Positions 3,972-40,914 of a DNA stretch of 64,000 nucleotides are shown piece after piece (the stretch's first letter is position 1; the number at the start of each line of letters is the position of its first letter). Source of the DNA: Trissonchulus latispiculum. Taxonomy: Eukaryota > Nematoda > Enoplea > Enoplida > Ironidae. The notes beneath the pieces are model-generated. The model did not search any database. It was not told the origin of the DNA and saw only the letters and a program-made list of their open reading frames with translations. The position numbers were made by a program, and so were the translations under genes. The DNA lies in the NCBI GenBank assembly GCA_030248195.1, contig JASAND010028127.1, forward strand, positions 1-64,000. The letters are read 5' to 3'.

Positions 3972-4269
3972 GAAAATCGTGTTGGCGAAAAAGTACGGGC
4001 AATTCAATGCCAGATGCAGCTGAACAAACAGGTGTCATGAGACAGCACGGCTGAGCAAAGCTGCAACTAAACGACTTGAATGATTTTCTTTGCATTTCTT
4101 AGCTCTCACTTCATGTGATTACTTTAGAGCCGTAGGAAGAGTGTTCTAACATTGAGCCAAAACAGCGCAAGGTTTTGAGTTCAAAGCAACGAAATAGTCA
4201 TTTAAAACATGACTATATTTGAAGATGATTTGCTAAGACCACACCGTAAAGATTCAAAATGTACTCAGC

Positions 4270-5933: not shown

Positions 5934-5935
5934 TT

Positions 5936-5954
5936 TGGCGACCGTGACAGGACC
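5936..5954 (+). other. Primer-binding site of element A
   Basis: TGGCGACCGTGACAGGACC begins two bases after the LTR end, as expected for a tRNA primer site. It resembles the 3' end complement of an arginine tRNA, but I have not matched it to a specific tRNA. Confidence 0.6.
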
Positions 5955-7011: not shown

Positions 7012-7432
7012 ATGGCCGAATTGAAGAATTTAATAACTCTTTTTAAGGGTTTGAGTAATTATAACGGGAGGGAAACCTCTCTAACTCCCGACGAATGGAT
7101 AATAAGTTTTGAGGCCATTGCGAAGGCAAACGATATCGGCGAAGATAAATTTTACTCAATTTTATTGGCAAAATTGGGTGAAAAAGTTATCCATAGACTT
7201 TCTTCTTTGGGAATGCCTGGTACGTACAGGGAGATGGTTGAACTCCTAAAAACGCTTTTTGAGCCAGTTCAGAAAACTGCCGTGGAACATTCTAGGCAAT
7301 TTTATGTACGTACTCAAAAATCCAGCGAAAATGTTCAGGATTTTGTGTCAGATTTGGACATTTTGGCTAGAAAGGCATTTCCCAGGGCCACTGATGACGA
7401 AAGGGCAGTATATGTTTTCGAGCAAAACCGAA
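7012..7432 (+). pseudogene. Element A gag, truncated N-terminus (unit 1)
   Basis: Starts at the ATG of MAELKNLITLFKG after a 1.08-kb leader (5934-7011). The leader holds C-runs and repeated 'ttttgggga' motifs and no long frame. The reading agrees with gag of the unit 2 copy (18615 onwards) with one Arg/Gly difference, until about 7432, where the sequence switches abruptly to unrelated GC-rich DNA (element B, opposite strand). The protein therefore ends inside the capsid region and lacks its zinc knuckle. Confidence 0.85.
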
Positions 7433-7440
7433 AGGCTTCA

Positions 7441-10400
7441 CCGTCTTTCGCCAGCGGTTCCAGAATTTATGGGGCCGAGGTATGCCATTTCCATCAAAGA
7501 AGAGGCCTCCGCCCCCCGGGAAGCCTCCATTGTCTAGTACCACCTGCCGAGGTGGGATCTAGTTCTCTTTGTTTTTCCGCTTCTGGAGTTTCTTCTTGCA
7601 TTTCTTGCAAGTACAAACGTACGTATCCTGTACGAATGTCAAGGGCTGGGTTCCGGGTCTAGTGTATGCCTCAGGCTGCAGGACACACCCGTCCTTTGCA
7701 GCCACTTCCGGGTTACCAGACATCGCTGGCCACCCATCCGAGTCATCACTGTCCCAGAATCGGGGTTCTGGGAACTCGGGAGGGTTAAAAGGGGAAGGAC
7801 CCATCGACCCGATAGGTGGGGTAGGGGCAACAATCATGTTAACTACGGCCATGGGTTGGGAGGGACACGAGTCAGACTCTACTGCCCGTGCCCCTGCTGG
7901 GCGTTTCCCTGGTCCGGGAAACCCTCATAACGTAGTGGGCCTATGATACCGCGGCCCCACCGCCGGCCTCGTCCAGCTGGCTGGTTATTATTATTATAAC
8001 GGTTATTCCCACCGTTATTCGCTGCTGGAGCGGCCGGGTTAGGCCTATTGGCATTGCCCCCTAAACGAGCAAAGATCCTTTGCCGTTGTGGGTGGTCAGC
8101 GCCAAATATCTGCACGCCGGCCAGATACGTAGGGCATTGACGCAACCGATGGCCTGGTTGCGTACACAGGAAGCACAATTCCTGTCCTTGGTGTTGGTCC
8201 CCTTGATTAGGTGAGGCCTGAGCTTGGCCCCCCGCAGGCTGGTGCACACCCGCACGCTGCTGCTGTGGCGGCTGCTGTACCGCAAAAGCTTGGACTGGGG
8301 CTTCCTCAGCCATCTCAGTTTCTACCGTCTCCGCTATATGCAGGGCACGGTTGACCAGCTCATTCTCCCGAGCATGAGGCCAAAACTGGACATGAGGCCA
8401 AAGCTAGAGCTCCGCCAATCCGTTTTCTGAGGTCCTGCCGTAAACCCCGGCAGAACTGGGCACAGATCTTCTTTTCCCTCTCCAGAGGCATCTCGAGTGG
8501 AAAAGCTTTAGCAGCGAGCAGTCGCAATGCCGCGACAAAATCGTGTGCTCGCTCGTTAGGCTGTTGCTGCTTCCTGTAGAACTGTTCTGCGTATTGTTCT
8601 ACGGTAGTAGGAAGCGGTTCATACAATTGGCGGAGCACCACGATAAAGTCTTCATAAGTGGAAGGCGGGTGTGGACTCAATGCCTCCTTTACGTTATCGT
8701 CCACCATGGTCCACAGTAACCGGTGCCAGAGCTCGCTTGGCACCTGATGCATGTTGGCCGTTGCGACGAAGTTATTTAGCCAACTCGTGAATTTAATTGG
8801 ACTTTGAGATCCCTGAAAGAGCTTCATGCCCTTGAAGCCTTTCAGATACTCACCCCATTGCCGGGTGAGGTCAAACTGGGTAGGCTTGGCTAGTGCCACG
8901 GTATTGTGGGGACCAGCCGTTTGGGGGGCGTGAACCTCTGTCCGAGGTTCCTGCCGGCGAGCCACAGGCCAACGTCGACCTATGGGCGGAGAGGCTGATT
9001 TCTCCGACGGGGCTTGTTCAATTTTGAGGGGAGACCGACCGCCCGGTCGTCTAAGTTCAGCCTCAGCCTCAACCCTAGTTGGCACCGACCTAGCCCTAGG
9101 TCGTGACGGCCAATACACAGGCTGCTGAGGGAAGGGCAGATTAGCCAACCCGGCTTCATCTGCATGAGGCTGTTCTGGCTGGGCCTCATATTGCTGGAAT
9201 GGCAAGGGCCCAGCATCCGGGTCCTCTCTTTCAGAGGGCCAGAGGCTGAGCAAGTCGGCGCACAATTCCGGGTAGTACTGATCCAGTGCTCCCCATGTGA
9301 CGTCCGGCAGGTCAGCCAGCCACTGGGTAATGAGGGACCGGCATACCTGATATTCCGCCGGTGACATAGTCCTAGTTTGTGGGACTCTGACTAGGCGGGC
9401 CAGCGGATTGACCCAAGGTACCACCTTATTATCCGGTGGTGGCATGGGGTCAGTGCCCACATCCACCATTTCCTTAGCCGGAAGAGATTCCTTCGGCTCT
9501 GATTTAGATGGTGGTCTGACAGGGCCACCAGCTGGGGGAGTCAGTTGTAAATAAGCTGAGCTCCGGTAACTGCGAGCAGGAGACGGCTTAGGCTCCTGCT
9601 GTGGGGGTGGGTCCCTGCTAGCTCCTAGCTGGGTACCTTCTTCGTCGTCCCACACGTAAGGCTCGTCGGAGCCGGGCCGGTCAGGCTGATTCTGTTCCCG
9701 AATCAGCGGAGCTGGGTCCGGCTCTGAATTACGCCGGCGGGTTTGGGGCCCAGTTGGGGGTCCAGCTTGGCCAGCAGGTCGTATGCGCACAACCGCAAGG
9801 CAGACACCAAATCCGGTGTAAGGCCAGGAATTGGGGTCTGTGCCGACTCCGGCACAGGAGGGGGCGCATGCGGCCTAGGTAGGGGAAAGAAACCCCTCTG
9901 GCGGAGATAGGCCTGTTCCTCTGCATGCCGGCGGCCCGCCAGCAAGATTCCAGCATCTTCACCAGGTGCCGCAGATCGTGGGGGTGGTAAGCCCAACCAT
10001 TTCTGTTGGGCCGGCGTCAAGGGGGGGTACCGCTGGTGATGACAGTAAAAGTCAAGAATCCTTGACTTTTCTGCCTGGCTGACCAAAGCGCCTGCTTCGT
10101 CCGATGTGGGCTCACGTAGCGGTAAATACCCGTACCGCTCAACGTGGGTCCTATTTCCGTCCATAAGCCGGCCCAACTCATCAGCCCGATGAGTAAAATC
10201 GGTCCGCCAGGCGCCGTCAGACGACTGGGCGGAAGACCGCCCCGGGTTTTCGGAGCCAGGCGGGTTGGCCACTGCCCCCGCTTGAGGTGCAGATTCCTCT
10301 ATGACCGAGGAATCCGCCGGATCAGGTGCCAGATCCGGGTTTGGAGGCTGCTCGACCCCATCTTCGGGGACATTTGCCTGGGCGGAGGACTCAGAGGTTC

Positions 10401-10443
10401 CTGGGTCCTCCGTTTGAGCAGCCGCCTGGTTTCTAGTTATCAT
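7441..10443 (-). pseudogene. Gag of a second gypsy-like element (element B), frameshifted
   Basis: Reads on the minus strand from ATG 10443 in three successive frames: about 10443-9703, 9790-8360 and 8313-7879. A fourth frame, 7852-7441, follows and is truncated. The N-terminal third is Pro/Ala/Glu-rich. The middle has a capsid-like region (SWLNNFVATANMHQVPSELW, then EQYAEQFYRKQQQPNERAHD). The C-terminal part has a CCHC zinc knuckle, CFLCTQPGHRLRQC. An imperfect 18-bp tandem duplication near 8372-8406 (atgaggccaaa twice) lies at one of the frame changes. The DNA is strikingly GC-rich compared with everything around it. Pol and the 3' LTR are missing: the element stops where it meets element A. 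Confidence 0.8.
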
Positions 10444-12062
10444 TATTGGCCTAACCTGAATACGTATGAAACTGGTGTAGGATTAAAATTAGTACGTACG
10501 TGAGATCTAATATGAGAGAAATTAACTACAAAACCGAAATTAAGTGGAAAAAGTACGTAAAAAAGACTGGTTTTGGTTAAAAACTGGTTGACAAAATACA
10601 CCGAAAAACCTACAGAACTAGGTACAACTGGGTAATATTGGCCAGAAAAATGTGCGTATCAACAAGAATTGGACAATACGCACAAACAATGGCCCAAAAT
10701 ACGACAAAAAATACGTAGAATTACCGACAATATGTCCTAGTTTACGCCAAAAATACGTACGTATCCCTCAAAAAATGGCAGGGACACGCAGTAAACAGGC
10801 CAAAATTTTCGACAAAATTACGACAGTAATACAACAAGTACCCACAAAATGGAAGAAAAACCCCGAAATATGACCAGAAATTGAGACAAAAGTGAATTAG
10901 GACCCCAGGGAAAAATTGGAAATTTTACCCCCAAATTTAACAAAATTTACACAATACGACGAGACAAATACAAAATAATCCCTAAATAGTACGTACAGGA
11001 TTTTTCCTAACCCGGAAAAATACCTAGTGGGCCTGGATTTTTCTGGTTCCAGAAAAATCGAAAATATTTTCACTGGTTCCGGAAAATATTTTCCCCACAA
11101 AATACACGAAACGTACGTAAAATTTTACAAAAATTGGCGAGGTGGAGGCCGAAACTGGCAGCCTATTGTAAAGTTTTGGCCCCAAGGAATAGATAGATGG
11201 GCGACCAAAGACCTTTACGGGGGTGCTGTGCGCTTTAGGCTGGATACGCAACCCGGACTGGAGATAATTTTCCAGGCCGACCTCGACAAGCCTCGCCAAT
11301 TAAAACCCAATTATCGTGAAACTTAAGCTCAGCCCCGCTAAATTACCCCTAATCTAAGCCCTAATGTCCCTACTTACCGAAACTAGGCAACGCTAAAATA
11401 CAAAAGGCCAAGTGGCCGTGATACAATATTTAATAAAGACTGGAGGGGGGGTTTATATAGATGACAGAAATTTCGATTTACACTTACAGTATTGACAGGA
11501 ACATCCAAAGAAATGACAGCAGAATTAGAGCATGAAATATACCATAAATAATAGGCAGCGCGAATATAGGGGTTTACTAAATGCCCCGTTAGCAAGCCTT
11601 GGGGTCCTTGTCTAACCTATCACCAGGTTAGAGGTTCTTTACTCTTCTAACCCGAATTTCAAGAACGCTCAAGGCCCCCAAGTAACCGTGCAGAATATAG
11701 ATAGACAGAATTTTGAAGAGAAAGAAAACACGAAAAACCGACCGACCAATTCAAGCGCTAAACTAAGACTGACTGGGCTTTTTGAAAGTAACGAGAGAAC
11801 GTGCAATCACGCGATCACACGTGACTTGCCCAGCCAATCAAATTTTAGATGAGACTTTTGAGAGAATTTCGAAACCAAACTGACAAATTGCTGATCTATC
11901 TTTGCAAAAAGACATACAATTACAATATTTCAAACACAATTTATAAACTATCGGGGCAATTTTGACAAAAACGAGATACATAAGTTCGGACTAATTTTGG
12001 ATAAAGAATCTTTTTAAATAATAATAAAATATGACAGTAGGGCATCACCGCCCTACTGTACA
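10444..12062 (-). repeat. Leader and probable 5' LTR of element B
   Basis: Non-coding, AT-rich, upstream of the element B gag. It ends at TGTACA (12057-12062), exactly where unit sequence resumes, and TG...CA would suit an LTR edge. A perfect 9-bp stem hairpin (cagtagggc/gccctactg) sits at that edge. Another inverted pair, aaaatattttc/gaaaatatttt, lies near 11060-11090. I cannot place the inner LTR border or primer site because no second LTR is present for comparison. Confidence 0.5.
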
Positions 12063-14396: not shown

Positions 14397-15524
14397 TCAG
14401 GGGCAGAAGACGACGTTGTATTGGGAGTTTTGGTTTCCGTTGCTGCGGCAAGTGTATGTAGACGCTTGATCGTCGTAGGCGTAGCTGTAGGCGTCGGGAC
14501 AAATGGCTTTGATCTGCCCAGCGTAATTGACAGGCCAATCCTTGAGTTGACAGGTTTCTGGTCGATCGTGTCGATTGGCACAACAGTAGATATCCTGATG
14601 AAATTTCTCACAAGCACTTTGACAGGCAACCACTTGACCATTTTCACTGTACTTTAGTTGTTGAGGACATTGCCTGTTCAAATCCATTTTACATTGAGCC
14701 TTCTTGCAGTAGTACTGACCCGGTCCAGAAGTGAAGGTTCCAGGCTTCGGCTCCACAGAAACAGGCAAATTGTACCCATCAACCAAGCTGATATCGTAGT
14801 AGTCTTGGTTACCGTGGCCATCGAAGGTGAACTCAACCAGAGTATCCTTGTATGGTTGGTGCCCAAGGGATCTTCGACCCCAAAGTCGCCCCGACCAATG
14901 TGCAGGAACTGGGATAGTGACTCTGCCACCTCGATTAACGTTATACTGTTTACTGTTGGTAAACACGTGGACATTGTGAGGGCATCGGTTTTCTACGTGA
15001 AATGCATGACCTGCTAAAATATGAGAAGAACACTAGAATAACTATTTGCCAAGAATATCTAACTTACTTACTTACTTATTTTGAGAAAATATTAGACGGG
15101 TTATCTGTTTTATTCTAGTGCAGTTTGGTAAAGAGTACATAACTAACACAAACGTTATGGAAGCGCTTGCGATCAGGCCACTCTCGATCTCATCTATACG
15201 GTGACGAATGTCCCACGCAACTGACTACAATTCTGTACTCAACTGTTGTGTCAGATCACTCTCACAAGGACACGCTTGAAGCCGCTCTGAGTTATAATGG
15301 ACTCTATATAGTTATGTAGGTTAATGTTTCGTATTCAAGTTGCTATTTGTTATGATTCAAAAGCGAATAGTAAATTAAAACGACAATTAAGTTTGGATAG
15401 ATAAATCCCGTCATTTTAACATTGCACAATACAATCTGCTGTCATCTAGAGTACATTCAAACTCACCATATGCAGTGCTGATGCAGACAGCGAGGAGTAC
15501 AACTGCACAAAGAAGGTTTGCCAT
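14397..15524 (-). CDS. Thaumatin-like secreted protein, copy 2 (two exons)
   Basis: Exons 15467-15524 and 14397-15010 encode 223 residues with the same splice sites (G|GTGAGT donor, TTTTAGCAG acceptor) as copy 1. The exon-2 protein is the same as in copy 1, and exon 1 differs at residue 3 (Asn for Lys). Nucleotide differences in exon 2 are few and mostly silent. AATAAA lies at 14338-14343. The gene is 11.6 kb from copy 1 in the same orientation. Appears intact and expressible. Confidence 0.9.
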
Positions 15525-17143: not shown

Positions 17144-17540
17144 TGTTAAAAACCTACTTTACTAACTGTTAATCCGCCCCAAATTACTCTACTTGTGTTT
17201 CGTGAATGATCAATGTATCAGACTTAAACAGCAACCATCTAGCTTATATAAGGTAGCTTAATTGCTTATGTAATCAGTATCGTTTGTTCTTCCATATGTG
17301 CTGCGGCCAGTAGTGCCACTTTATGGTCAATATTGCCTTCCATATATTATGCTTTATTAAACCAACCGTAAGTTCAAGTAAATACCATGCCTACTTTATC
17401 TTTTAATTAGGGAAGATCAGTTAGGGATATACTTTCTTTCTTTGCGAGTTGCACCTTAGGTTAGGACTTTAGTAGAACCTGCATTCGATTCGCCATCTAA
17501 GTGCCGGTTTAGTTACCGGACAGTAAACCGGTAGTTAACA
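17144..17540 (+). repeat. 5' LTR of element A, unit 2
   Basis: 397 bp, TGTTAA...TTAACA, the same length as the LTR in unit 1 and with few substitutions. No partner LTR was found downstream in this window. Confidence 0.9.
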
Positions 17541-17542
17541 TT

Positions 17543-17561
17543 TGGCGACCGTGACAGGACC
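17543..17561 (+). other. Primer-binding site of element A, unit 2
   Basis: Same TGGCGACCGTGACAGGACC as in unit 1, two bases after the LTR. A 1.05-kb leader without coding frame follows (to 18614). Confidence 0.6.
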
Positions 17562-18614
17562 ACTGTCCGGTTTGCTAAATTGAAAAAGTTTCAAATTTCG
17601 TGAATTTTCAAAAACGATTTTTGAACTTAATTTTGCGATTTATTGGGGTGGGTGTTTTTCCACAACCTTTGTGTCGAATTTTCTCGATACTGAGAAACCT
17701 TGACACGAAGGAAAGCAACAGAAGCTGAACTTGGAGCATTATTTGCAAATTTTTTGCAAAAAATCGTTACATTTTGGTAGTTTTTGTACCCCCCCAAGGG
17801 CAAATTTTGTCAAATTTTACAAATTCTGGCCTAAATAAAATTTGTGGGTACTCCCCAAGTGTTGTATAATTTTTGGGGACCCGTAATTGCTAGATTTTTG
17901 CAATTTTAGGCACTTTTTGGGCAAAATTTTGACCCACCCAAACCCCCCCTAAGGTCAAATTTCGTTGAATTTTGGTAAATTTTTGGCCGAATAATTTTTT
18001 GGGAACCCCCCAAGCGTGGTATAATTTTGGGGACCCATAATCGCCAAAATTTCGAAGTTTCGGAAATTTTAGGATAAAATTTCGAAACCCCCCAATCGAC
18101 CCAGAAATCGATTTTTGAACGATTTTTAGGCCGAATTGCTTCAAATTACGACCGTCCTAGGCGCAAACCGTCGTTCTAGGAGGATTTTCGACTGATTTTT
18201 GTGTCAAAAACGTAATTTTGACTTGATTTTGTACCCCCCCACCCTCTCCCCAAATTACCAATTTTTGGACATATTGTTGAAAATTTGTCAATTATCATCG
18301 CAAATGTCCTCCATAACAATAATCCCAACCCCCCCCTACCTGCGATGTAATCAGGAACGTTTATTTTGTTTTTTGAAGCAATTTGTCGACGATTTTTGCC
18401 ATTTTTTTGTGTACGTATCTAACTTTTTGATAATTTTTGGTAAAATTTTCCCGCCATTGAAGTAATTCCAGAAGAAGATATTTCTGATACGAGTTTTGGC
18501 AGCATTTGGGAGATTTTTGACCAAGTTTCTGATACAATCGAGAAAATCTACGTGGTAAATAGAAATCTGGAAACGCGATTACAAGCTCGTTTACGTGAAG
18601 AAAGAGAACAAAAA

Positions 18615-19877
18615 ATGGCCGAATTGAAGAATTTAATAACTCTTTTTAAGGGTTTGAGTAATTATAACAGGAGGGAAACCTCTCTAACTCCCGACGAATG
18701 GATAATAAGTTTTGAGGCCATTGCGAAGGCAAACGATATCGGCGAAGATAAATTTTACTCAATTTTATTGGCAAAATTGGGTGAAAAAGTTATCCATAGA
18801 CTTTCTTCTTTGGGAATGCCTGGTACGTACAGGGAGATGGTTGAACTCCTAAAAACGCTTTTTGAGCCAGTTCAGAAAACTGCCGTGGAACATTCTAGGC
18901 AATTTTATGTACGTACTCAAAAATCCAGCGAAAATGTTCAGGATTTTGTGTCAGATTTGGACATTTTGGCTAGAAAGGCATTTCCCAGGGCCACTGATGA
19001 CGAAAGGGCAGTATATATTTTCGAGCAACTCAGAAAAGGTCTCAAAAGCGTTGGAGTTTCGCTACTTTCTGATCTGGAAAGTTGGGGACATACAATGGTG
19101 AAGCTGCGAAAAATCGTGGTCCAACTTTCGCGTGTCGAAGAGGAATGCGACTCTGACTCAGCCGAGTCGGATAAATCGGAAAAGTCTGAAAAATCTGAAA
19201 AGGCAGAAAAAACCCGGAAAAGATCAAAACGGGGAAAATCTAAGGCGAAAGTTTGTACGGTTTCTTCGGACGAAACGGAGAAATTAGATCCTATAGACTT
19301 GAAACTCAAGGAATTAGAAGAGGAACTGAAAAAGGTCAAAATTCGAAATGCTCAGAGGGATTTGTTTCTCGAAGCTACGAAAGGTGAGCCAGAGGGCTCA
19401 GAAAAACCCTCTACGAGCTCAGCTTCTGGTGCGGTAAATGCCGTACAGGCATCTACAGAATCGAAGGAAAAACCTACTGACGAAAAGGCCGAAGATCAGA
19501 GGATTTGCAACAAATGTGGGAATCCTGGCCATATTTCGCCGCAATGCGCTCTAGGCTTAGACGGATTATCGCGGACTAGACGGATTATCGCGGACTATTC
19601 CAATCAAAATTCTGGCCGAATTTGGAATAGAGGAAACCGAGGAAACTATAACGGTCGAGGAGGCCGTCGGGGAGGAAATTCCAATAACCGGAATCAAAAT
19701 GCGAACGTTTTTGTGGACCCTAGTGGTCGGGTTTTTCGCACAAATCGTCAAAATGGCGTAAATTTCCTCACCCCTGTCCAACAGGAGATGGACCCTACTA
19801 GGCAGTTGGTGAATTTTCTGCAGAATTTTCAGCAAGCGGGGAGCACAGCAAATTCCGGGGGTGCCCCTCCGCAGTAG
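18615..19877 (+). CDS. Element A Gag (capsid and CCHC nucleocapsid)
   Basis: From the ATG of MAELKNLITLFKG the open frame runs 420 residues. The capsid part contains SFEAIAKANDI and a Glu/Ala-rich helix region. A charged Ser/Lys-Glu repeat region follows (residues about 195-225), and then a CCHC zinc knuckle CNKCGNPGHISPQC near residue 300. The C-terminus is RG/RGG-rich, typical of RNA-binding nucleocapsids. A perfect 19-bp tandem duplication at 19560-19597 is read in two different frames (LDGLSRT then RRIIADY), so it shifts the frame by one between the knuckle and the RG tail. The upstream GTG-initiated extension is unlikely to be used. Confidence 0.85.
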   Translation: MAELKNLITLFKGLSNYNRRETSLTPDEWIISFEAIAKANDIGEDKFYSILLAKLGEKVIHRLSSLGMPGTYREMVELLKTLFEPVQKTAVEHSRQFYVRTQKSSENVQDFVSDLDILARKAFPRATDDERAVYIFEQLRKGLKSVGVSLLSDLESWGHTMVKLRKIVVQLSRVEEECDSDSAESDKSEKSEKSEKAEKTRKRSKRGKSKAKVCTVSSDETEKLDPIDLKLKELEEELKKVKIRNAQRDLFLEATKGEPEGSEKPSTSSASGAVNAVQASTESKEKPTDEKAEDQRICNKCGNPGHISPQCALGLDGLSRTRRIIADYSNQNSGRIWNRGNRGNYNGRGGRRGGNSNNRNQNANVFVDPSGRVFRTNRQNGVNFLTPVQQEMDPTRQLVNFLQNFQQAGSTANSGGAPPQ

Positions 19878-19948
19878 GATCCCCACCCAGAAAGCCAAGT
19901 ACGTATATAACGCAGAAAAATCCGCAAGTCAATTTAATGTCGGAATAA

Positions 19949-21012
19949 ACCCCAAATTGTTTGGAGGGTCTCTCGAAACTTTTTAAGGATCAAAAGGTTT
20001 TAAGTGCTAATCAGATTTGTACAGTTTTTACACCTACGTATGCGGATGTTACTCGGGGTTCTAGATCTCAAAATTCTACGGAAAACCCCAGAAATCTTTT
20101 ACAGTCGGAATTGCAAAGGTTATTGCAAAATTTGGATATACGTACCTTGGTGGAGGCTTTAAATAGCCCTAACCCCCCACCCCTTTTTCCTCGATCTCCT
20201 CAGAATGGCCATAATGTACAGCAGAATCAACAGCAACGTGTACAGAATGTTTTATCTCAGCCGTTGATTCCACTTTTTCCTGTAAATTCTGGTAGAATTC
20301 AGAATAGAACGTTTAGAAGAGGTTTTTCTACATTTCCTCGAAATACATACAACGGAAATGCAAACTATCAGAATAATTCCCGCTACTACGCCTATAGTCG
20401 GGAGAATTATTCTAGAAATCAGTATTCTGCTCCACGTGTACCAAATTTTCGTGGAGGGCCACGAAATTTCAGAAATTGGAACGTGCGCCCCCCTTCCCAA
20501 AACACGTATGGTACGGGTTCAGGTACTACCCGAACTCCAGCTGGTGGCAACAATGGAAATGCTAATGCTATCTTGCAGTGCCACAACCTTTCACAACACA
20601 ACAACACAACACAACAAATCAAAACCAAAGTGCGCGTATTTGGGAAAACAGCAGGTTTTCAAGGGGAAACTCTGCCGCTCTCCCAAGTACAAATTGGCGC
20701 CAATATGTGACACAGCAAGGGACAACAGCAAGTCAGCAAGTACCTAGTGCTAGGGTAGCTGGGGTAGGTAGTCAGGAATCATCTGTAGGTAGGAATTCGA
20801 CGGTTCACGTCACTGACACTGGTGACCTAGTTCTGACGAATTCAAACAAGAAAGATGAAACCTGTACAACTAATGCTGCAAAAATTGTCAGATGCCTCAA
20901 AATACAAAAAGTCAGAGACGAAAAATGCAAATACAGCAAATGGAACGGAAACAACGTTGAATATGTCTCAAGACCAACTAGTTACACGATTAAATCGACT
21001 CAGAACAATTGA
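19949..21012 (+). pseudogene. Element A linker between gag and protease, frame-broken
   Basis: Opens after a TAA at 19946, in a different frame from gag. It reads an Asn/Gln/Arg/Gly-rich protein with no family I recognise (about 20000-20700), then passes to another frame near 20578-20710 and back to the first near 20855. It probably belongs to a longer Gag-Pol linker. Two frame changes and a TGA at 20708 interrupt it. Confidence 0.6.
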
Positions 21013-22183
21013 TGAGGCACCTGATTCCGAGGAAAGTGCAGCGAAAGATTCATTTTCGAATGTGGATAGGGAAACTAATGACGATAACAAACGAAAAGAC
21101 GAACCTAGCTCATCATCAAGTCGAATTCTTCGTTCAAATAAAAAGGTGAAATCTGTTCAGAAACGACGTTCTCATAAGATTCCAGACCCAGATTTCCCTG
21201 GAAGATTTCTTTTTGAGTATGATTCTTCTGAAAGTTCACAGTCAGACCAAAGTCAGTCTGAAACGTCAGATTTGGAAAATGATAATTTTGAAGTCAATCC
21301 TGTGAATTCTGTGAATCATGTTAATTCGCCAGAAAAGGCACCTAAAACTGACTTCGTGACGAATAATCGAAACTATTTAGCGGCTTTTGTGCATCAGGAT
21401 CAGTATTTTTTCGGTGCTCAGACCAAAATTCCACCGGTTCACTCACCGCTGATAGTAGCATCAGTGGGAGGTGTAAATACTTTGGCTCTTATTGATACGT
21501 GCGCTAATATTTCTGTGGTTTCTCAAAATTTTGTGGAACATCTAAAGCAAAAATGCCCGGAAAGTTTAACTTTTTGTGAAGGTGCTTGTGAACAAGCTAC
21601 TGCAGCTAACGGAACAGCCATCAATTTTTCTGGTACAGTGAAATTTGAACTTTCTTTTCAAGGCTACAGATGGACTCATGAGTATTTAATAAGTGAATTT
21701 TGTCCTTATGACATACTTCTTGGTATGGATTTTCTATCTTTTTACAACTGGTCAATGCTCATGGGACGCCATTCAGTTTACCATCCTTTGTTTAAAGAAG
21801 TTCCGTTGCTGGGGGCACCGCAAATTAGTAGTATTTTGCAAACTATTGGAAAAGCACAGCCAGCTGTTTCGAATATTTGTCTACGAGTAGGAACTACTAT
21901 TCCAGCGAACTCTGAGGCATGGGTTACTATAACTTGTGAGGACAGTCAACCAAAAATTGACCTGACTGATGATGAGTGGGACTTACCCTTTGTACGTACG
22001 AAATCATCAATTGTAAATACGAAAATAGCTCCTTGGCCTTCACGGTTTGAAGAATCGCCTAAGCTAGTGCGAAATTCTATGAGTATTTTGGAAAAGTACG
22101 ATTGCTATGTTGTTCCAGGAATTATCTCAAAAGGGGAAAACCCCAAGAAATCAGAGTGTGGAATTTTGGCGAAGAGCCTATGA
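20855..22183 (+). pseudogene. Element A protease region
   Basis: An acidic Ser-rich stretch is followed by a retropepsin-like domain. The catalytic motif reads IDTCANISVV at 21491 onwards, and the second conserved motif YDILLGMDFL is near 21708-21737. The usual flap-side residues between them look complete. Canonical retropepsins have D-[TS]-G at the active site; here the third residue is Cys (TGC at 21500-21502), one base from Gly. After 22183 the frame shifts to 22102-22460 and again before RT. Confidence 0.75.
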
Positions 22184-22457
22184 CTTTACATCCTGGAATG
22201 GTACTAGCCTATGCAGACGACTTAGTTTCTGTAAAAAATCGTCAAGGCAAGGAATCGTTTCTACAGTTGAGTGATACGTGGTTTGAAAAGGAGTACGTAT
22301 GTGAAGATGATCTACCTAAGTCTGTAAAAGCTGAAATTTTTTCTGCAACTGCTGAAAATACGTACGTGGATACACCTTCAACGTCTCAGAAACGCAAAAC
22401 GCGACAAAGGAACCTACACCAGAAGAACTGTACGAACAATTTCTCAAGGAAGCTCAA

Positions 22458-23417
22458 TTGGACAAGTTCGAATGTTCAGAAAAAGCTAAAGGTAAGTTCA
22501 AAGAACTACTACGTAAGTACGTACATGTGTTTGCTACACCAGAGAATCTTGGAAGATGCAGCACAGGACAACATCTCATCGATACAGGAATGGCAGGTCC
22601 AGTAACAGCAAAAGCATATAGGATGAACCCTGTGGAAAGGGCTGAAATCGAAAAGCACATCAAGAAAATGTTAGAACAAGGCATTTGTGTTCCATCAGAT
22701 AGTCAATGGTCTTCACCGTGCATGCTTGTAGGCAAAAAGGACGGAACAACCCGATTTGTCATTGATTATCGCCAGTTGAATAAAATAACAAGAAAAGACC
22801 GCTATCCTTTACCAAAAATCGATGAAATTCTAGATATGTTCAGTAAAGGGAAATTCTTTTCAACTTTGGATTTAAATAGCGGTTATTGGCAAATCGAGAT
22901 GTTCCAGCCTCATAAGGAAAAGACCGCGTTTATTTCACATATGGGCTTGTTTCATTTCAATGTCATGCCTTTTGGTTTGACAAATGCCCCTGCGACTTTT
23001 CAAAGAATTATGGAACGAATTTTCACAGAATTGCCAGTTTATATCGACGATTTGTTAATTCCTTCTAACGACGAATCTCACCATCTAAAAATGCTAGAAG
23101 TGGTTTTTCAAAATCTATCAGATCATGGTTTGCGTTTGAAAATGAAAAAGTGCGTGTTTTTCCGCAAAAAGGTTGAATATTTAGGACATTCTATCTCCGA
23201 AAAGGGTATTGAAACAGATCCGCGTAAAGTGACTGCGGTTCAAAATTTTCCAGTACCTACTACCATTAAACAGCTACGTGGTTTCTTAGGTATGGCAGGT
23301 TATTATCGGAGATTTATATGTAACTTTAGTTCTATTGCGGCACCAATGAACGTTTTGTTGAAAAAGATGAAGGTTTTCATTGGAACGATCAATGTCAAAA
23401 AGCTTTTGAAACCCTAA
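22458..23417 (+). pseudogene. Element A reverse transcriptase
   Basis: Conserved RT blocks in order: VGKKDGTTRFVIDYRQLN, LDLNSGYWQIEM, FGLTNAPATFQRIM, the catalytic YIDD (23040-23051), then LGHSISEKGIETDPRK and RGFLGMAGYYRRFI of the RT-RNase H connection. The strand before YIDD looks shortened (ELPVYIDD), suggesting an in-frame loss. The frame ends at 23417, before RNase H, so RT and RNase H are no longer joined. Confidence 0.85.
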
Positions 23418-23850
23418 AACAGGCTTTAGTAAACGCACCAGTTCTTGCATACCCTGACTGGGATAAACCTTTTATTTTGACAACAGACGCTAGTGTCGTG
23501 GGTCTTGGTGCAGTGTTAGAACAGGACCAACTTGGAGAGAAAAAGCCTAAACCTATTGCGTATGCTAGTCGATCTTTAGTTGGTGCAGAAAAACGCTATA
23601 AAATTGTGGAATTAGAAGGTCTTGCAGTTTTTAGTTTTGTAAACATTTTCAGCATTACCTACGCCATAGACAGTTCACTTTATATACTGATAATGAAGCC
23701 CTAAAGTATATTTTTGCAAACGCCAGAAATCAAGGCTATACTCGAATTGCCAAATGGGCTATTGTACTTTCTGAATTTAATTTTCGAACTGAACATCGAA
23801 AAGGCGTAGATAATCCTGTAGCAGATTGTTTGTCTCGTAACCCTCAAACT
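23418..23850 (+). pseudogene. Element A RNase H
   Basis: RNase H motif LTTDASVVGLGAVLEQ (catalytic Asp) near 23480 is followed by PIAYASRSL and KRYKIVELEGLAV. The frame is then lost near 23635. In another frame the domain goes on with YTDNEALKYIF and EHRKGVDNPVADCLSRNP and leads into integrase. At least one frameshift splits the domain. Confidence 0.75.
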
Positions 23851-25728
23851 TCCGTCGTTGATACTAACGACCGGAGCGACGAAGGTGAATATAAATCTGT
23901 TGTTGCTAAGAATGCTTTTCAGTACGTATCTGATGAATTTGATGTAACGGGTGAAATGTTCCCGCCAGTTTGTGTTATTGAAAAATACTCTGACGATGAA
24001 TGGGCTCAAGCTCTTAAAGTTGACGCTGATTTTGGTTCTTTTATTACGTATCTTGAAAAAGGCACATTGCCCAAAGATGACTTAACTTGGACTCTAATAA
24101 GTAGTCAAGCTGACTTTGAATATGAAAACGGTATTTTGTATCGCTGGCTTACTGATATTCACGCCAAAAGGAAGAAAGGTTCAGGACGTTTAATTTGTGT
24201 TCCTAGAAAATTTCGCGATTATATTTTGGAACAATACCATTCTGCTATTGATACTGGTGGTCATCAGGGTATTCCTCAAACTCATTATAAAGTTGCGACT
24301 AGATATTATTGGCCTATTTTGTTCACTGATGTGAAATTGTACGTACGTAATTGCATTGTTTGTGCTAAGTTTTCGATAGGCCCGAGGAACCCTCAAGCTC
24401 CGATGAAAATTTATCCGCCAGTTTCGAAACCTTTTGAAAGAATTTATGCTGACGTTATGCATTTTCCTACGAGCAAAAAGCAAAATGTTTGTGTTTTGGT
24501 AATTATTGATCAACTTACCCGTTGGACAGAAGCATGGCCCTTAAGGAACGAAAAAGCTGAAACTTTAATACGTATCATTTTGAATGAATTTATTTTACGA
24601 TACGGAGTTCCTACTGAGGTCGTAACGGACCAAGGTCCTAATTTTCAGGCAGAAGTCACAACTGCACTTTTTAAATTGATGGGTACAAAGAAGTTACGTA
24701 CCACTGCCTACCATCCTCAGTCAAACGGTTTAGTAGAACGGGCAAACGGTACTATACGTGAAATAGTTAAGAAGTACGTAGATGTTAACCAACGCGATTG
24801 GGATGTCAAGTTAGCTTTTGCTATGCATGCATACAGAAAGTCATTGCATTCTACTATTCAAGATACACCGTATTTTTTGTTATTTGGTCGGGACTGTCAA
24901 GTTCCAGAAGATTTGTTGTTTGAAAACATTGATAAGCCAGTAATTTCTCTTGTTAATTATAAGACGTCTTTAATACGAACTTTAACAGAAAACTGGCATC
25001 TTACAGCTCAAATTACAGCTGATAAAGCGGAACTTGTAAAACAGCGGTATGATAAACGTGTTCGTTTGAAGAATTTTGAAGTGGGTCAAATTGTTATGCG
25101 TAACATTACTCAAATGCCACAACCTACGGGTACTATGTCTAAATTGGCACCTAAGTACGACGGACCCTATAGAATTGTCGAGGTCCTTTCTGATCAAAAC
25201 GTGCGCTTACGTGATATGAAAAAGGGTGACATTAGCAAGGTCATACATGTCAATCGTTTGAAATTGCTACCTAATATAAACCCTGAAACTTTGGAGGAGT
25301 TGGAAATAGATGTTGACGATCCAACTGCTTCCACTAGTACTGATGTTGTAGATACGTCTGTAGATAAGGATACTGTAGCTACTGATGATGATATTGTCGT
25401 ACGTAAATGTGTACTAAAACCCACTGAAACCGACCAAGAACATAATAATAATAATACCGCAAATGAACATCATGACGAAGATATTCAAGTCGTTAATAAA
25501 GAGCTTAATATGGTGCAACGAAAAGAGTTGCCTACGGAAACGGGAACGGAAGAAACCAAAGTACATCAATCTCAACCATGTCAAGTTATGTCTACTACCA
25601 TACACTTTACTCCTTCGGTTGCCTGCACCTCAGCTCCAATTACCCATCAACCGAAGCTCCTTTTCTTCCCTTCCCCAAATCAAAATTATAATGATTGTAT
25701 TTTGTCAAAGAAACTTTCATATGACTGA
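23830..25728 (+). CDS. Element A integrase with chromodomain-free GPY/F C-terminus
   Basis: Open for 632 codons, continuous with the end of RNase H. The zinc-binding HHCC region is H...GGH (near 24235-24262) with CIVC (24354-24365). Catalytic core D-D-E: ADVMHFP, VTDQGPNF, and ERANGTIREI. The C-terminal GPY/F module reads KYDGPYRIVEV, ending with VIHVNRLKLLP. A Thr/Asp-rich tail of about 150 residues follows. The catalytic triad is intact, so this part could still encode an active domain, although RT upstream is broken. Confidence 0.85.
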   Translation: MSRNPQTSVVDTNDRSDEGEYKSVVAKNAFQYVSDEFDVTGEMFPPVCVIEKYSDDEWAQALKVDADFGSFITYLEKGTLPKDDLTWTLISSQADFEYENGILYRWLTDIHAKRKKGSGRLICVPRKFRDYILEQYHSAIDTGGHQGIPQTHYKVATRYYWPILFTDVKLYVRNCIVCAKFSIGPRNPQAPMKIYPPVSKPFERIYADVMHFPTSKKQNVCVLVIIDQLTRWTEAWPLRNEKAETLIRIILNEFILRYGVPTEVVTDQGPNFQAEVTTALFKLMGTKKLRTTAYHPQSNGLVERANGTIREIVKKYVDVNQRDWDVKLAFAMHAYRKSLHSTIQDTPYFLLFGRDCQVPEDLLFENIDKPVISLVNYKTSLIRTLTENWHLTAQITADKAELVKQRYDKRVRLKNFEVGQIVMRNITQMPQPTGTMSKLAPKYDGPYRIVEVLSDQNVRLRDMKKGDISKVIHVNRLKLLPNINPETLEELEIDVDDPTASTSTDVVDTSVDKDTVATDDDIVVRKCVLKPTETDQEHNNNNTANEHHDEDIQVVNKELNMVQRKELPTETGTEETKVHQSQPCQVMSTTIHFTPSVACTSAPITHQPKLLFFPSPNQNYNDCILSKKLSYD

Positions 25729-25804
25729 AGTTATATATGCACTTTGTAATTTAGGACAAGTTAATTCTATATTCTGCGCTTTTCATCTAAATTCTGGAAT
25801 TTTC

Positions 25805-28800
25805 ATGGCCAAAAGAGTTCACTCCGGCTGGAGTGATGAGGAAAGTTCTGCGCCTAAAGTCAGAACATATGATGTAGCGCCAAATCCTGCTCAAAGACAG
25901 GCCATTGCAAATCAGAGAAGAAATGCCAAAAGGAGAGACAGGGCGCAAGGAAAGCCGCAGAAAAAGAAATCCCAAGGATGGGAAGAAGATTTTCAGTCAG
26001 ACTATGCTGTCGAGTCATTTCAACAGACGCCCACTCAACTTCAGAGAGAGGAGCAGCGGAGACGACTTCAAACTTTGGAGAATACTATGGAAAAGCTCTA
26101 TTTGGTTCAGACTCGACCGGTTACTTTGTCATCATATTTGGTGGACGAAATTGCTAGTAGATGGAAGCCAAACAGTTATACGTTTTCCTGGGAGTATTCA
26201 GAAGGTAGTCTGTATGACATCGCTCAGGTGACAACATCGATTCCAGGAGTAGTTCCGGAACAGGTCCAGAGAAGGCAATGGGCAATTAATGAGTTGTGTG
26301 AAAAACAGGGAATTAAATCTATCTTTTCCTTTTTGGATCTTTTGAAGTGTATCCCTATTTTGAAGGAAATGATCCAAGGTCGGTACATTGTGATGGATCT
26401 GGAAGGAATTAGGCATGCTGCCTTTGGTCAAGAACAAGCGGCAAATGTGGGTGGCTATTCAGTTAGCCGGACCAATTGTGTTTGACAATGAACAGCCTAA
26501 GCCTAAGCATAAGATTGTGATTTGGCTCAGTGCCATTATGGCTACAACTCTGGATTTCCAAGTGCTGTTTCATATGCTCAGAAAGTTTTTCGATCCTAAA
26601 AATGGAGCGTTGTTCTTTGCAGTAGGAGCGAATTCAGATGCATTGAGGCTGACTAGATTTTTAGACTTGCCAGATTTAGATCAAAACTGCGTCGAATTGA
26701 CGGAATTTTGGCGTAACCTTGGCACAGTCTTGAATTCTATCGATTGTCCAGAAGGGTATAAGCCACAGTTTTGGGTTAACCATCCAGACCAGTGTACTCC
26801 AGGAGCGTGTAAAGGAAATTTGAGTTTGAAAAGAACTGCGGATAGTTGGTTTGTTCCAGACCCTAAGGAAGTGGTACAGGGTGCTCCAAAAATGTGGGGC
26901 GTCACTGTCCAACCGTGGGAATGGCATGCAGAATATTCTTGTGCAGATCTAACTGCTCTGGTAGAAATCACTCAGAAGCTGATGAAAGCCTGTTCACATG
27001 AAGATATGTGGGAGACGGCCGTAACAGCTTCGACAGTAGCTTTTGCGTTCACTCCTTGGAGTAAGACAGTAACAACCATTAGGAACAATCTAGGACTATA
27101 TCGTGGACCAGTTACACAAATGCATTCCAGGGTGGCATACAATAAAACGTTGCCGAGGGACAAAAAATCTTGATGATGGATGCAGTAGATAGACGAGTCC
27201 ATTGGTTTCACAGAAATTAGGCTACGGAAAGAGATGCAATGGTTCCTATTGTGTCTGATCATCCAACTAGATGGGGTCAGTTGATGAAAGATCCAGAATT
27301 GCCAATCGCCAAACGCCCAGAAACACTCAAAGTCATGTCTCAATATGTGAATCGACTATTAGAACTGGAAGAGCCTAACGAGGTTTTACGTCCAGATCAT
27401 ATGGACCATGAAATGTGGGATTGTAACTATTTTGCTCAGTTCATCGAGAAAGAGGAGCAAGGCATTGAGATTCAGGAATAGAAAAATTACGAGGATGATG
27501 TGGGTGTTCAAATTCAAGCATTGGAAGAACTTGTGTTGGCAGATGATTCGGAATTGGACGTTCCAGAGGAGGAATTGGAGTTAGTTGATCCACCGGTCCC
27601 GGAGCAACAGCCAGGACCATCGGGAGTTTTACCTCCACCACCTCCACCACCAAAATTGCCAAGGGTGCACATTGAATTCCCACCACCTCCAGTGCCACCT
27701 GAATTGCCAGAAATGATGGATATTTCATCTCCACCCAGATCTCCAAAACAGGTGAAATTGGTAGAGGATATTGAGACAGATGATGAACTTAGTGTGAATC
27801 ATTGGGAACAGGCATTCGGACAAAATTATCTCAATCCGACAGAACATCGGGAAAAAGAATCTGAGTCTGTGGAAGAGTCTGCAAGTCGTTCAGACGAAGG
27901 ACATGTAACTTTACCAGAAACAGCTCAGTCTTCCGAATTTTCTTTGAATGTGAGAGGACTCATCGATATAGTTAAACGAGTACAGGCTACGAATTATGCG
28001 CCACCGCAAACAGGAATTTATGTTGAGTTGATTACTACACGGTTTAATGGAATTCCAAATCAAGCTAAACATCATACTTTCCATGTTGTGTTGACCAATC
28101 CCTTGCATAAGAATGAGTTTGTGGCTGCAGCTCAGATGCCAGAAGGTATTCCAGAATTGGAAAATGTCCATCCTATTCAGATTCGAGCTAGAGAAACAAT
28201 CTTAACGCACAACGAGCATTTTGCCTATTTACAAGTACCTTCGGAATGAACAAGCTGGAAAACCTAATATTTCTGAAGTGGTTAGTGAGTTGACGGACGA
28301 GGTTCTAGTGGAAAGGAGTTTGTATGCTTTTGGTCCCGATGGACGTTTAGGGATTTACCCTTACTCCGTGTTGATAACCAAGTCCAGAATGGCAAAAGGG
28401 ACAATTGTTAACGTCGTACCCAATGCAGTGTTTGAACCATCTTCAGAGGAATTCATTGAGGTTTGTGATGAAGTGCGACGAGTTGAACAGGCAAAATGGG
28501 ACAGAAAACGAGCGCTTCAGGTGTATGATGAACCAGCTCGTGTACAGCCACCTGTAGGACCGATCGTACCAAAGGAGAAACTTTCTGATAAAGCGAAGCA
28601 ACATCGTAATAAAATCAAGAAGGAAATGCTAGACGATGAGGTTAGACCAGTGATGCAACCACCGGAATATCGTGACATCTCGGATTTTGCGTGGATAAAA
28701 GATGACGAACTTGAAGCCAATAGATTGATTAAGGCTATACCAGGATATCAGAAATGGTTGGAAGAATTAGACCTTTATTCACGCACGGCGAACAAGAGGA

Positions 28801-29098
28801 GGTTCTTGCACCTCTCAGCAAAGCAGAGTATTTGGATTGGCTTTATTCTAAATTGCATAGTCATAATTGGCGTGAAGTTTTGGTCATTTGCAAGGCAATA
28901 CGTTTAGCCATGGATAGAAAATTTCTCATTGATTTTGATAAGGTGTATGCGCCATTCGATATCTACGAGGGCATACCACCACAGCTGTTGGCACAAAAGC
29001 TCCAACAAGCTACTTCGCCAATTACGGTCTATCGCTTATGGGATAATATCATTGTGACTAAATTTCAAGCGACGTGCAACGATGATGTAAAGGTTTTT
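25805..29098 (+). pseudogene. Third coding region of element A: DEDDy 3'-5' exonuclease-like protein, frameshifted
   Basis: Starts at an ATG 77 bp after the integrase stop. The first part is a basic, Arg/Lys-rich segment (about residues 20-60). A DEDDy exonuclease-like domain follows. Exo I is YIVMDLEG (Asp 26396-26398, Glu 26402-26404). After a frame change near 26410-26440 comes VAIQLAGP. Exo II is FAVGANSDALRL (Asp 26637-26639), with VELTEF behind it as in RNase D/WRN-type domains. Exo III is EYSCADLTALVEI (Tyr 26934-26936, Asp 26946-26948, spacing Yx3D). Downstream are a Pro-rich region (27630-27720) and about 450 residues of unknown fold. Breaks: frame changes near 26420, 27165 (an A-run), 28230 and 28790, and in-frame stops at about 27217 and 27479. 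The 3' end is cut by the unit 3 junction. I do not know of a Ty3/gypsy element with such a domain. Confidence 0.7.
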
Positions 29099-30495: not shown

Positions 30496-31629
30496 TCAGG
30501 GGCAGAAGACGACGTTGTATTGGGAGTTTTGGTTTCCGTTGCTGCGGCACGTGTATGTAGACGCTTGATCGTCGTAGGCGTAGCTGTAGGCGTCGGGACA
30601 AATGGCTTTGATCTGCCCAGCGTAATTGACAGGCCAATCCTTGAGTTGACAGGTTTCTGGTCGATCGTGTCGATTGGCACAACAGTAGATATCCTGATGA
30701 AATTTCTCACAAGCACTTTGACAGGCAACCACTTGACCATTTTCACTGTACTTTAGTTGTTGAGGACATTGCCTGTTTAAATCCATTTTACATTGAGCCT
30801 TCTTGCAGTAGTACTGCCCCGGTCCAGAAGTGAAGGTTCCAGGCTTCGGCTCCACAGAAACAGGCAAATTATACCCATCAACCAAGCTGATATCGTAGTA
30901 GTCTTGGTTACCGTGGCCATCGAAGGTGAACTCAACCAGAGTATCCTTGTATGGTTGGTGCCCAAGGGATCTTCGACCCCAAAGTCGCCCCGACCAATGT
31001 GCAGGAACTGGGATAGTGACTCTGCCACCTCGATTAACGTTATATTGTTTGCTGTTGGTAAACACGTGGACATTGTGAGGGCATCGGTTGTCTACGTGAA
31101 ATGCATGACCTGCTAAAATATGAGAAGAACACTAGAATAGCTATTTGCCAAGAATATCTAACTTACTTACTTATTTTGAGAAAATATTAGACGGGTTATC
31201 TGTTTTATGCTAGTGCAGTTTGGTAAAGAGTACATAACTAACACAAACGTTATGGAAGCGCTTGCAATCAGGCCACGGTCGATCTCATCTATACGGTGAC
31301 GAATGTCCCACGCAACTGACTACAATTCTGTACTCAACTGTTGTGTCAGATCACTCTCACAAGGACACGCTTGAAGCCGCTCTGAGTTATAATGGACTCT
31401 ATTTAGTTATGTAGGTTAATGTTTCGTATTCAAGTTGCTATTTGTTATAATGAATAGTAAATAAAAAGCGAATAGTAAATTAAAACGACAATTAAATTTG
31501 GATAGATAAATCCCGTCATTTTAACATTGCACAATACAATCTGCTGTCATCTAGAGTACATTCAATCTCACCATATGCAGTGCTGATGCAGACAGCGAGG
31601 AGTACAACTGCACAAAGAAGGTTTGCCAT
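30496..31629 (-). CDS. Thaumatin-like secreted protein, copy 3 (two exons)
   Basis: Exons 31572-31629 and 30496-31109, 223 residues. Donor is G|GTGAGA and acceptor TTTTAGCAG. The exon-2 product is the same as copies 1 and 2 except Asp for Glu in the N-terminal HVENRCP motif. Residue 3 is Asn. AATAAA lies at 30437-30442. The intron is slightly longer than in copy 1 because of an extra 'gaatagtaaataaaaagc' stretch shared with copy 4. Intact. Confidence 0.9.
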
Positions 31630-39785: not shown

Positions 39786-40914
39786 TCAGGGGCAGAAGAC
39801 GACGTTGTATTGGGAGTTTTGGTTTCCGTTGCTGCGGCAAGTGTATGTAGACGCTTGATCGTCGTAGGCGTAGCTGTAGGCGTCGGGACAAATGGCTTTG
39901 ATCTGCCCAGCGTAATTGACAGGCCAATCCTTGAGTTGACAGGTTTCTGGTCGATCGTGTCGATTGGCACAACAGTAGATATCCTGATGAAATTTCTCAC
40001 AAGCACTTTGACAGGCAACCACTTGACCATTTTCACTGTACTTCAGTTGTTGAGGACATTGCCTGTTCAAATCCATTTTACATTGAGCCTTCTTGCAGTA
40101 GTACTGACCCGGTCCAGAAGTGAAAGTTCCAGGCTTCGGCTCCACAGAAACAGGCAAATTGTACCCATCAACCAAGCTGATAGTAGTCTTGGTTACCGTG
40201 GCCATCGAAGGTGAACTCAACCAGAGTATCCTTGTATGGTTGGTGCCCAAGGGATCTTCGACCCCAAAGTCGCCCCGACCAATGTGCAGGAACTGGGATA
40301 GTGACTCTGCCACCTCGATTAACGTTATATTGTTTACTGTTGGTAAACACGTGGACATTGTGAGGGCATCGGTTTTCTACGTGAAATGCATGACCTGCTA
40401 AAATATGAGAAGAACACTAGAATAGCTATTTGCCAAGAATATCTAACTTACTTACTTATTTTGAGAAAATATTAGACGGGTTATCTGTTTTATGCTAGTG
40501 CAGTTTGGTAAAGAGTACATAACTAACACAAACGTTATGGAAGCGCTTGCGATCAGGCCACGGTCGATATCATCTATACGGTGACGAATGTCCCACGCAA
40601 CTGACTACAATTCTGTACTCAACTGTTGTGTCAGATCACTCTCACAAGGACACGCTTGAAGCCGCTCTGAGTTATAATGGACTCTATTTAGTTATGTAGG
40701 TTAATGTTTCGTATTCAAGTTGCTATTTGTTATAATGAATAGTAAATAAAAAGCTAATAGTAAATTAAAACGACAATTAAATTTGGATAGATAAATCCCG
40801 TCATTTTAACATTGCACAATACAATCTGCTGTCATCTAGAGTACATTCAATCTCACCATATGCAGTGCTGATGCAGACAGCGAGGAGTACAACTGCACAA
40901 AGAAGGTTTGCCAT
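39786..40914 (-). pseudogene. Thaumatin-like protein copy 4, frameshifted
   Basis: Exons at 40857-40914 (signal peptide, residue 3 Asn) and 39786-40394. Splice sites match copy 3. Compared with copies 1-3, five bases are missing near 40181 ('gctgatagtagtc' instead of 'gctgatatcgtagtagtc'), so the frame breaks within the DYYDIS motif and the protein would stop three residues later. The downstream half, including CPDAYSYAYDD, is otherwise unchanged. AATAAA is at 39727-39732. Either a recent pseudogene or a sequencing error. Confidence 0.85.

Follow-up and report, generated by a model that had tools for sequence, protein, structure and literature searches.

Several long terminal repeat (LTR) retrotransposons of bdelloid rotifers, Juno1/2 and Vesta2/5, carry a third open reading frame (ORF3) that encodes a DEDDy-type exonuclease (Rodriguez et al. 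2017, PMC5408684), and it has been suggested that these proteins may process the 3′ ends of retrotransposon RNAs (PMC5408684; also PMC5718144). The Vesta2/5 proteins contain a Cys-His-Cys motif (PMC5408684), and among the accessory domains of LTR elements those of the DnaQ-like exonuclease type are cited as well known (PMC6338049). NADAR domains have been described in Gypsy elements of the brown alga Ectocarpus and in Tx1 long interspersed nuclear elements of oyster (PMC12477816). The subject of this report is a Ty3/gypsy element in a 64,000-nucleotide stretch of contig C19060 (the window), whose ORF3 begins just past the integrase. We consider it probable that a 16.9-kb element with the order LTR-gag-pol-ORF3-3′ untranslated region-LTR includes ORF3 as an integral third gene, and that its product combines a DEDDy-like exonuclease domain and a NADAR-like domain with a role in 3′ trimming, a judgement that covers identity and membership more than mechanism. 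The first-pass annotation of the window had proposed the capture of a DEDDy exonuclease by such an element; its further statement that no gypsy element with this domain had been described is contradicted by the bdelloid LTR elements (PMC5408684).

The locus resembles Juno and Vesta in the position of a third ORF, which follows pol and precedes the 3′ LTR, and in the DEDDy domain, recognized here at the level of motifs and profiles. It differs in its NADAR-like part, which is not mentioned for the rotifer proteins in the available parts of the source, the two being compared by description and not by sequence. The Ectocarpus elements are likewise Gypsy-type retrotransposons that acquired a NADAR domain of the YbiA family, whereas here the NADAR-like part is C-terminal in a separate ORF3 shared with the DEDDy-like domain. 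DEDDy exonuclease ORFs are also found in Terminons, giant Penelope-like elements of bdelloids (PMC6431247, PMC5408684), but these contain a Penelope-type (Athena) reverse transcriptase and no Ty3/gypsy pol. Dada elements possess a DEDDy-type exonuclease domain proposed to process cleaved 3′ ends (PMC3706591), but are DNA transposons in which the domain resides within the transposase. As far as the literature was searched, the presence of DEDDy-like and NADAR-like domains in one ORF3 is new, each alone being already published: no report of both in one retrotransposon ORF3 was found, subscription papers and preprints lying mostly outside the search, and YbiA was found in association with a retrotransposon only in PMC12477816.

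The copy of the element in the window comprises the following features:

17144-17540, plus strand: 5′ LTR (TGTTAA...TTAACA, 397 bp); the primer-binding-site-like TTTGGCGACCGTGACAGGACC comes next
18444-19877, plus strand: gag ORF of 477 residues with a CCHC-like zinc knuckle (Pfam zf-CCHC, 19.3 bits, cut-off 20.8)
20837-22183, plus strand: protease part of pol (Pfam Asp_protease_2, E = 3.1e-7)
22356-23417, plus strand: reverse transcriptase part of pol (Pfam RVT_1, E = 8.4e-33)
23635-25728, plus strand: RNase H end, H2C2 zinc domain and integrase (Pfam RT_RNaseH, Integrase_H2C2 and rve)
25805-29098, plus strand: ORF3, broken and cut off on its 3′ side, covering about the first 1,100 of the 1,727 residues of intact genomic copies
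26390-26407, plus strand: Exo I-like motif VMDLEG
26631-26651, plus strand: Exo II-like motif NSDALRL, followed by VELTEF
26745-26810, plus strand: Cys/His-rich insert in the interval between Exo II and Exo III
26931-26948, plus strand: Exo III-like motif EYSCAD (Yx3D)

The order of the Pfam matches, with gag followed by pol as protease, reverse transcriptase, RNase H and integrase, assigns the element to Ty3/gypsy. The integrase stop at 25728 and the ORF3 ATG at 25805 are on the same strand and separated by 76 bp. Consistent with the first-pass annotation, ORF3 contains the Exo I, Exo II and Exo III motifs in that order and is a broken coding sequence, with several frame shifts and no fewer than two in-frame stops; pol is broken as well. 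Upstream of its ATG the ORF3 frame stays open over 387 bases (25418-25804) and there overlaps the end of pol, which is read in a different frame; a similar open overlap upstream of the ATG occurs in C16814, C21600 and C14853. With such an overlap, frameshifting, splicing and re-initiation are all possible routes to translation of ORF3.

The arrangement seen in the window recurs throughout the genome assembly, which comprises 733.8 Mb in 21,732 contigs. DNA searches returned at least 51 matches to ORF3 (40 of 98 candidates scored) and at least 41 to the integrase end (40 of 315 candidates scored), and an integrase match was counted as reaching the end if it extended to query base 1413 or beyond of 1429. 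Among the matches listed, ORF3 lies 76-90 bp past the integrase end in 13 of the 17 end-reaching matches, the window included. The spacing is 76 bp in the window, C5214, C16814, C21600, C7718, C8329, C573, C3563, C13928, C4455, C14853 and C18387, and 90 bp in C5503. Of the exceptions, C2649 has ORF3 3.7 kb further on and C8861 lacks the ORF3 start, while for C4437 and a minus-strand match on C18387 no ORF3 match was among those listed. These last two left out, none of the copies inspected showed an LTR directly after the integrase, the arrangement that the first-pass annotation had named as speaking against a third gene. A 3′ LTR is present past ORF3 in 11 of 14 downstream flanks and additionally in C21600 (12 of 15), so that the further integrase-ORF3 copies with an LTR beyond, which that annotation had proposed to look for, do exist. 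The 3′ LTR is split in L022 and L029, is partial in L027, L028 and L032, and was not found in flanks L026, L031 and L035.

The complete copy on C16814 spans 16,873 bp, from a 5′ LTR beginning at 26848 to a 3′ LTR ending at 43720. The 5′ LTR is followed by TTTGGCGACCGTGACAGG, the 3′ LTR is preceded by the purine tract AGGGGGATGA, and 2.2 kb separate the end of ORF3 from the 3′ LTR. Identity of its two LTRs at 397 of 398 positions in an alignment with 4 gap columns, together with a target duplication, CAAG, makes a recent insertion probable for this copy. Both LTRs are also retained in C5214 (380 of 396 positions identical, 3 gap columns) and C8329 (375 of 393, 20 gap columns). The LTRs of the three copies display 75-92% identity to that of the window; C5214 and C16814 have the same LTR ends and the same downstream sequence as the window 5′ LTR, and C8329 has the same 3′ end and the same sequence after the LTR. 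Two observations weigh against the reading of ORF3 as a third gene of the element. A target duplication is visible in neither C5214 nor C8329, and was thus seen in one of the three two-LTR copies, and two close integrase relatives, C19757 (L056) and C10367 (L057), show no ORF3 within 3.5 kb past the integrase. The integrase stretch of C10367 is 99% identical to that of C10163, which encodes a second ORF3 family. L056 contains an LTR-like match at 2827-3063.

The boundaries of the insertion in the window are revealed by four tandem units, each of which contains a thaumatin-family gene:

2793-3428, minus strand: thaumatin-family gene, first unit (Pfam E = 2.3e-48)
14397-15032, minus strand: thaumatin-family gene, second unit
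30496-31131, minus strand: thaumatin-family gene, third unit
39786-40376, minus strand: thaumatin-family gene, fourth unit, its start partly different
29098/29099, no strand: junction at which the insert ends and the host repeat unit resumes (29099 = 12968 = 35629)
34262/34263, no strand: empty site in the third unit, from the tandem-unit comparison

Matching pieces of the units are ∼95-99% identical, and the insertions differ between units. The 5′ LTR of the element begins at 5536/5537 in unit 1 and at 17143/17144 in unit 2, while unit 3 is uninterrupted. Unit homology runs to 17143 and restarts exactly at 29099; the sequence from 17144 to 29098 is inserted DNA. A deletion extending from inside ORF3 into host DNA removed the remainder of ORF3 and the 3′ LTR, together with about 1.37 kb of the host unit, judged by unit 3. 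The absence of a 3′ LTR beyond ORF3 in the window, correctly noted in the first-pass annotation, is explained by the end of the inserted sequence at 29098. What the window retains is a dead fragment of the element: its coding sequence is broken, and it was truncated when a deletion occurred between tandem units of the thaumatin gene.

The word gtacgta is, as had been noted, absent from ORF3. The shorter tacgta occurs 13 times in the 4,892 bases of pol and 0 times in the 3,294 bases of ORF3, where 8.8 would be expected at pol density. From this absence and the lack of a 3′ LTR it had been argued that ORF3 could be an adjacent host pseudogene, outside the element, or a very recent capture. The lower tacgta density does favour a pseudogene, but this explanation, to which we attach virtually no weight, is ruled out by the empty site, in itself a strong counter-argument, the repeated adjacency of integrase and ORF3 on many contigs and the 3′ LTR beyond ORF3. 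A very recent capture was likewise rejected: the depletion is real, but relatives of ORF3 at 25-59% identity occur in the same genome.

For the N-terminal part of ORF3 the best reading is a DEDDy-type exonuclease domain, an identity that rests on catalytic residues and profiles and not on a Pfam match above cut-off. The Exo I, II and III motifs are of the same kind and in the same order as in RNase D, WRN and EXD2, and a VGxxxD...VELT-like stretch resembles that of WRN, although the spacing between catalytic Asp residues is longer, at 80 and 103 residues (E. coli RNase D: 57 and 70). A DEDDy-like pattern (three hydrophobic residues and DxE, a spaced D and a spaced Yx3D), which was composed after the motifs had been seen, was matched by 29 of 20,000 shuffles of the read-through protein. 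Two stricter patterns were matched by 11 and 1 of 20,000 shuffles, and a looser one by 787. Among single-frame tiles of the window 1 of 324 fits the pattern, at this place in ORF3; as VMDLEG is read in a different frame, the fit depends on the adjacent FDNE, and this control adds little.

Conservation of the motifs was surveyed at 31 loci, 28 of which matched and represent 20 copies. All five catalytic positions can be read in 15 copies, and 11 of these keep the full set D, E, D, Y and D. The set is complete in the three intact copies, in C10163 and in L063, a single 801-base stretch from the distant exonuclease relatives (27% identity). In a three-sequence alignment that includes L063 the five residues are invariant, as are DxEG, QLAGP, DxLRLxR, VE, L, WG and Yx3D. 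Of the Cys/His-rich insert, C10163 retains the first Cys and one His but not the other two Cys, and the Cys residues are not kept in L063. In profile-profile comparison with RNase D relatives, the alignment spanned 158 columns and placed the Exo I and Exo III motifs on their counterparts, and 1 of 300 column shuffles scored as well; the Exo II stretch was not convincingly aligned. A WRN/EXD2 profile picked out the Exo II stretch, with 0 of 300 column shuffles as good, and a profile of four ORF3s was equalled by 1 and 0 of 200 column shuffles. PF01612 (DNA_pol_A_exo1) matched C10163 with E = 0.045 (14.0 bits against a cut-off of 23.6) and is the sole Pfam family listed for the C10163 stretch L055:800-1700.

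Several results count against this identification. A catalytic residue is changed in 4 of the 15 readable copies (C2649, C3563, C20016 and C83). In no sequence compared does an exonuclease-domain match reach the curated cut-off; PF01612 is not listed for the longer C10163 stretch L055:410-3037, and Pfam returned no exonuclease match for window pieces (E ≤ 1) or the read-through (E ≤ 10) and none at E ≤ 10 for the exonuclease region of the intact copy or for L063. HHalign probabilities were 7.2% and 4.9%, low because the profiles are small, and the RNase D-type profile includes a consensus as one of its rows. Single-sequence comparisons of ORF3 with the small DEDDy profiles, or with RNase D, WRN and EXD2, were not significant. 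For the exonuclease region, 71 of 5,000 shuffles scored as well with the RNase D-type profile and 708 of 5,000 with WRN/EXD2; further tests gave 1 of 200 shuffles (aligned at Exo III only), 27 of 1,248 reported shuffles in hmmsearch, and 7 and 56 of 150 in two HHalign settings. L063 alone was equalled by 38 and 398 of 3,000 shuffles with the RNase D-type and WRN/EXD2 profiles, respectively. When the 310 ORFs of the window were ranked with the RNase D-type profile, the ORF3 piece came first, but at E = 0.76; with WRN/EXD2 it was not among the eight listed. Smith-Waterman alignments were equalled by 392 (EXD2), 16 (WRN, in the wrong register), 54 (mouse WRN) and 894 (At3g11770) of 1,000 shuffles. 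An AlphaFold single-sequence model of one window piece, with a predicted local distance difference test score (pLDDT) of 35, was useless. A nameless PHROGs family matched the exonuclease region (E = 0.012), and NCBIfam gave nothing relevant for window pieces. PDB sequence searches matched neither a DEDDy nor a NADAR chain. A large protein database yielded no match for the 26394-27173 piece, the read-through or the X-joined ORF3, in a search that lacked a pol positive control, and viral contigs none for the ORF3 piece or the integrase.

The lack of a curated domain match, the weak single-sequence profile scores and the frequency with which shuffles fit the looser pattern would be expected if the motifs had arisen by chance in an env-like or structural protein without a nuclease fold. 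This is improbable, given the rarity of the narrower pattern among shuffles, the invariance of the catalytic residues in the alignment with L063, the profile comparisons and the sole listing of PF01612 for the C10163 stretch. The proposed capture of a DEDDy exonuclease stands to the extent that ORF3 belongs to the element and that DEDDy-type is the best reading of its N-terminal part; a very recent capture is not supported.

The predicted order within intact ORF3 is a basic N-terminus, the DEDDy-type exonuclease, a proline-rich linker and a NADAR-like domain. The last of these lies beyond the truncation in the window, where ORF3 stops near residue 1,100. The C-terminal part likely adopts a NADAR fold, as judged from sequence matches. 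Residues 1297-1449 of the intact protein matched Pfam NADAR with E = 2.6e-4 in the whole ORF3, 7.3e-5 in a C-terminal piece and 7.9e-6 in a shorter piece, and the second family (C10163) matched the same profile (PF08719) over positions 31-154 of 163 (E = 1.1e-6, 29.5 bits). TIGR02464 (E = 6e-5) and the nameless phrog_1017 (E = 6.9e-6) matched the NADAR-like stretch, and in a profile comparison with YbiA itself 2 of 100 shuffles were as good. In the alignment with E. coli YbiA, which has only 22-23% identity and may be off, KFYQEPELR lies opposite KFEQHAELR.

The NADAR matches are under the curated cut-off (21.7-29.5 bits against 35.1), as are those of TIGR02464 (at most 23.3 against 73.7). Work on NADAR specificity describes a Glu of the last strand, replaced by Asp or His in other subfamilies, that contributes to the catalytic centre (PMC11125620). 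The Glu in LVEHT of YbiA, presumably the catalytic Glu described for NADAR, is opposite Lys in the two ORF3 families (LAKSA and FAKSA), and the alignment places no Glu, Asp or His of ORF3 at this position. NADAR-like activity is doubtful because of these scores and the Lys opposite the YbiA Glu. A NADAR-like part that may be inactive would also fit a protein in which the DEDDy-like domain does not cut and only binds RNA, as in EXD1 and Maelstrom, inactive DEDD derivatives that function in PIWI-interacting RNA biogenesis (Rodriguez et al., PMC5408684). Such a binding-only protein is unlikely, as the three intact copies, C10163 and the relative at 27% identity all retain the five catalytic residues.

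ORF3 is open in three copies, in which it encodes 1,727, 1,728 and 1,727 residues. The ratio of non-synonymous to synonymous substitution rates (dN/dS) is 0.106, 0.075 and 0.098 for the three pairs, a sample limited to these pairs and to copies picked for being open. In the same pairs the exonuclease part displays a dN/dS of 0.08-0.12, and the NADAR-like part contains 0 amino-acid changes compared with 8, 11 and 15 synonymous changes. These data indicate that, among open copies, purifying selection acts on both domains of the ORF3 protein.

A protein search of the genome with the exonuclease region returned at least 115 matches (114 of 532 candidates scored; several rows may be one element). 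The matches listed form a window-like group; a large group at ∼41-63% identity, in which ten rows lie in open frames of 1,585-1,799 residues; and a set of 13 at 25-30%, of which six lie in open frames of 2,189-2,515 residues. These long frames, on C18764, C18439, C3802, C7041, C9545 and C14870 (26-27% identity), exceed the ORF3 of the window family in length and are perhaps fused to something else. Between C16814 and C10163 the synonymous divergence (dS) of ORF3 is 2.26, near saturation, while integrase dS between the window and C10163 is 0.76. An ORF3 value so far above that of the integrase hints at module exchange between elements or at very uneven rates.

With respect to function, the ORF3 protein would be made together with the particles of the element, its exonuclease part would trim the 3′ ends of element RNA or complementary DNA (cDNA), and its NADAR-like part may bind or remove adenosine diphosphate ribose (ADP-ribose) on nucleic acid. 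We give about even chances to ORF3 acting as a 3′-end processing factor for element RNA or cDNA. An anti-defence factor or a binding-only protein is less likely than this. In the former case the exonuclease would trim host small RNAs and the NADAR-like domain would strip host ADP-ribose from retroelement nucleic acid, which would agree with the purifying selection on ORF3 and with the handling of nucleic acid or its marks by both domain types elsewhere (PMC11125620, PMC5408684). We regard an anti-defence role as unlikely: it would presuppose host ADP-ribosylation of element nucleic acid, and ORF3 as aligned lacks the Glu of YbiA. A further proposal, that the two domains jointly free element RNA or cDNA of host ADP-ribose marks, is a long shot; if true, it would imply a host defence against retrotransposons by nucleic-acid ADP-ribosylation.

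Other insertions and remnants occur in the window. The insert in unit 1 (5537-12061) consists of the start of the same element up to 7425 followed by a different stretch, and ends near the inverted CAGTAGGGC...GCCCTACTG. In the 7426-12061 stretch, where tacgta is also frequent, long minus-strand ORFs (8360-10482) gave no Pfam match at E ≤ 0.01. Further reverse transcriptase remnants are located at 44947-46296 on the minus strand (RVT_1, E = 4e-31) and at 4237-4908 on the plus strand (RVT_2, E = 7e-5, under cut-off).

This locus provides an example of a gypsy element in which a DEDDy-like exonuclease gene is a fixed part, open and under purifying selection in some copies, while diverged relatives occur elsewhere in that genome. 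Such genes have their published setting in bdelloid rotifers, and if the present host is not a bdelloid the arrangement extends to another lineage. The joining of a NADAR-like domain to the exonuclease, together with the NADAR domain of the brown-algal Gypsy elements, suggests that the handling of 3′ ends and of ADP-ribose may be a recurrent need of retrotransposons.

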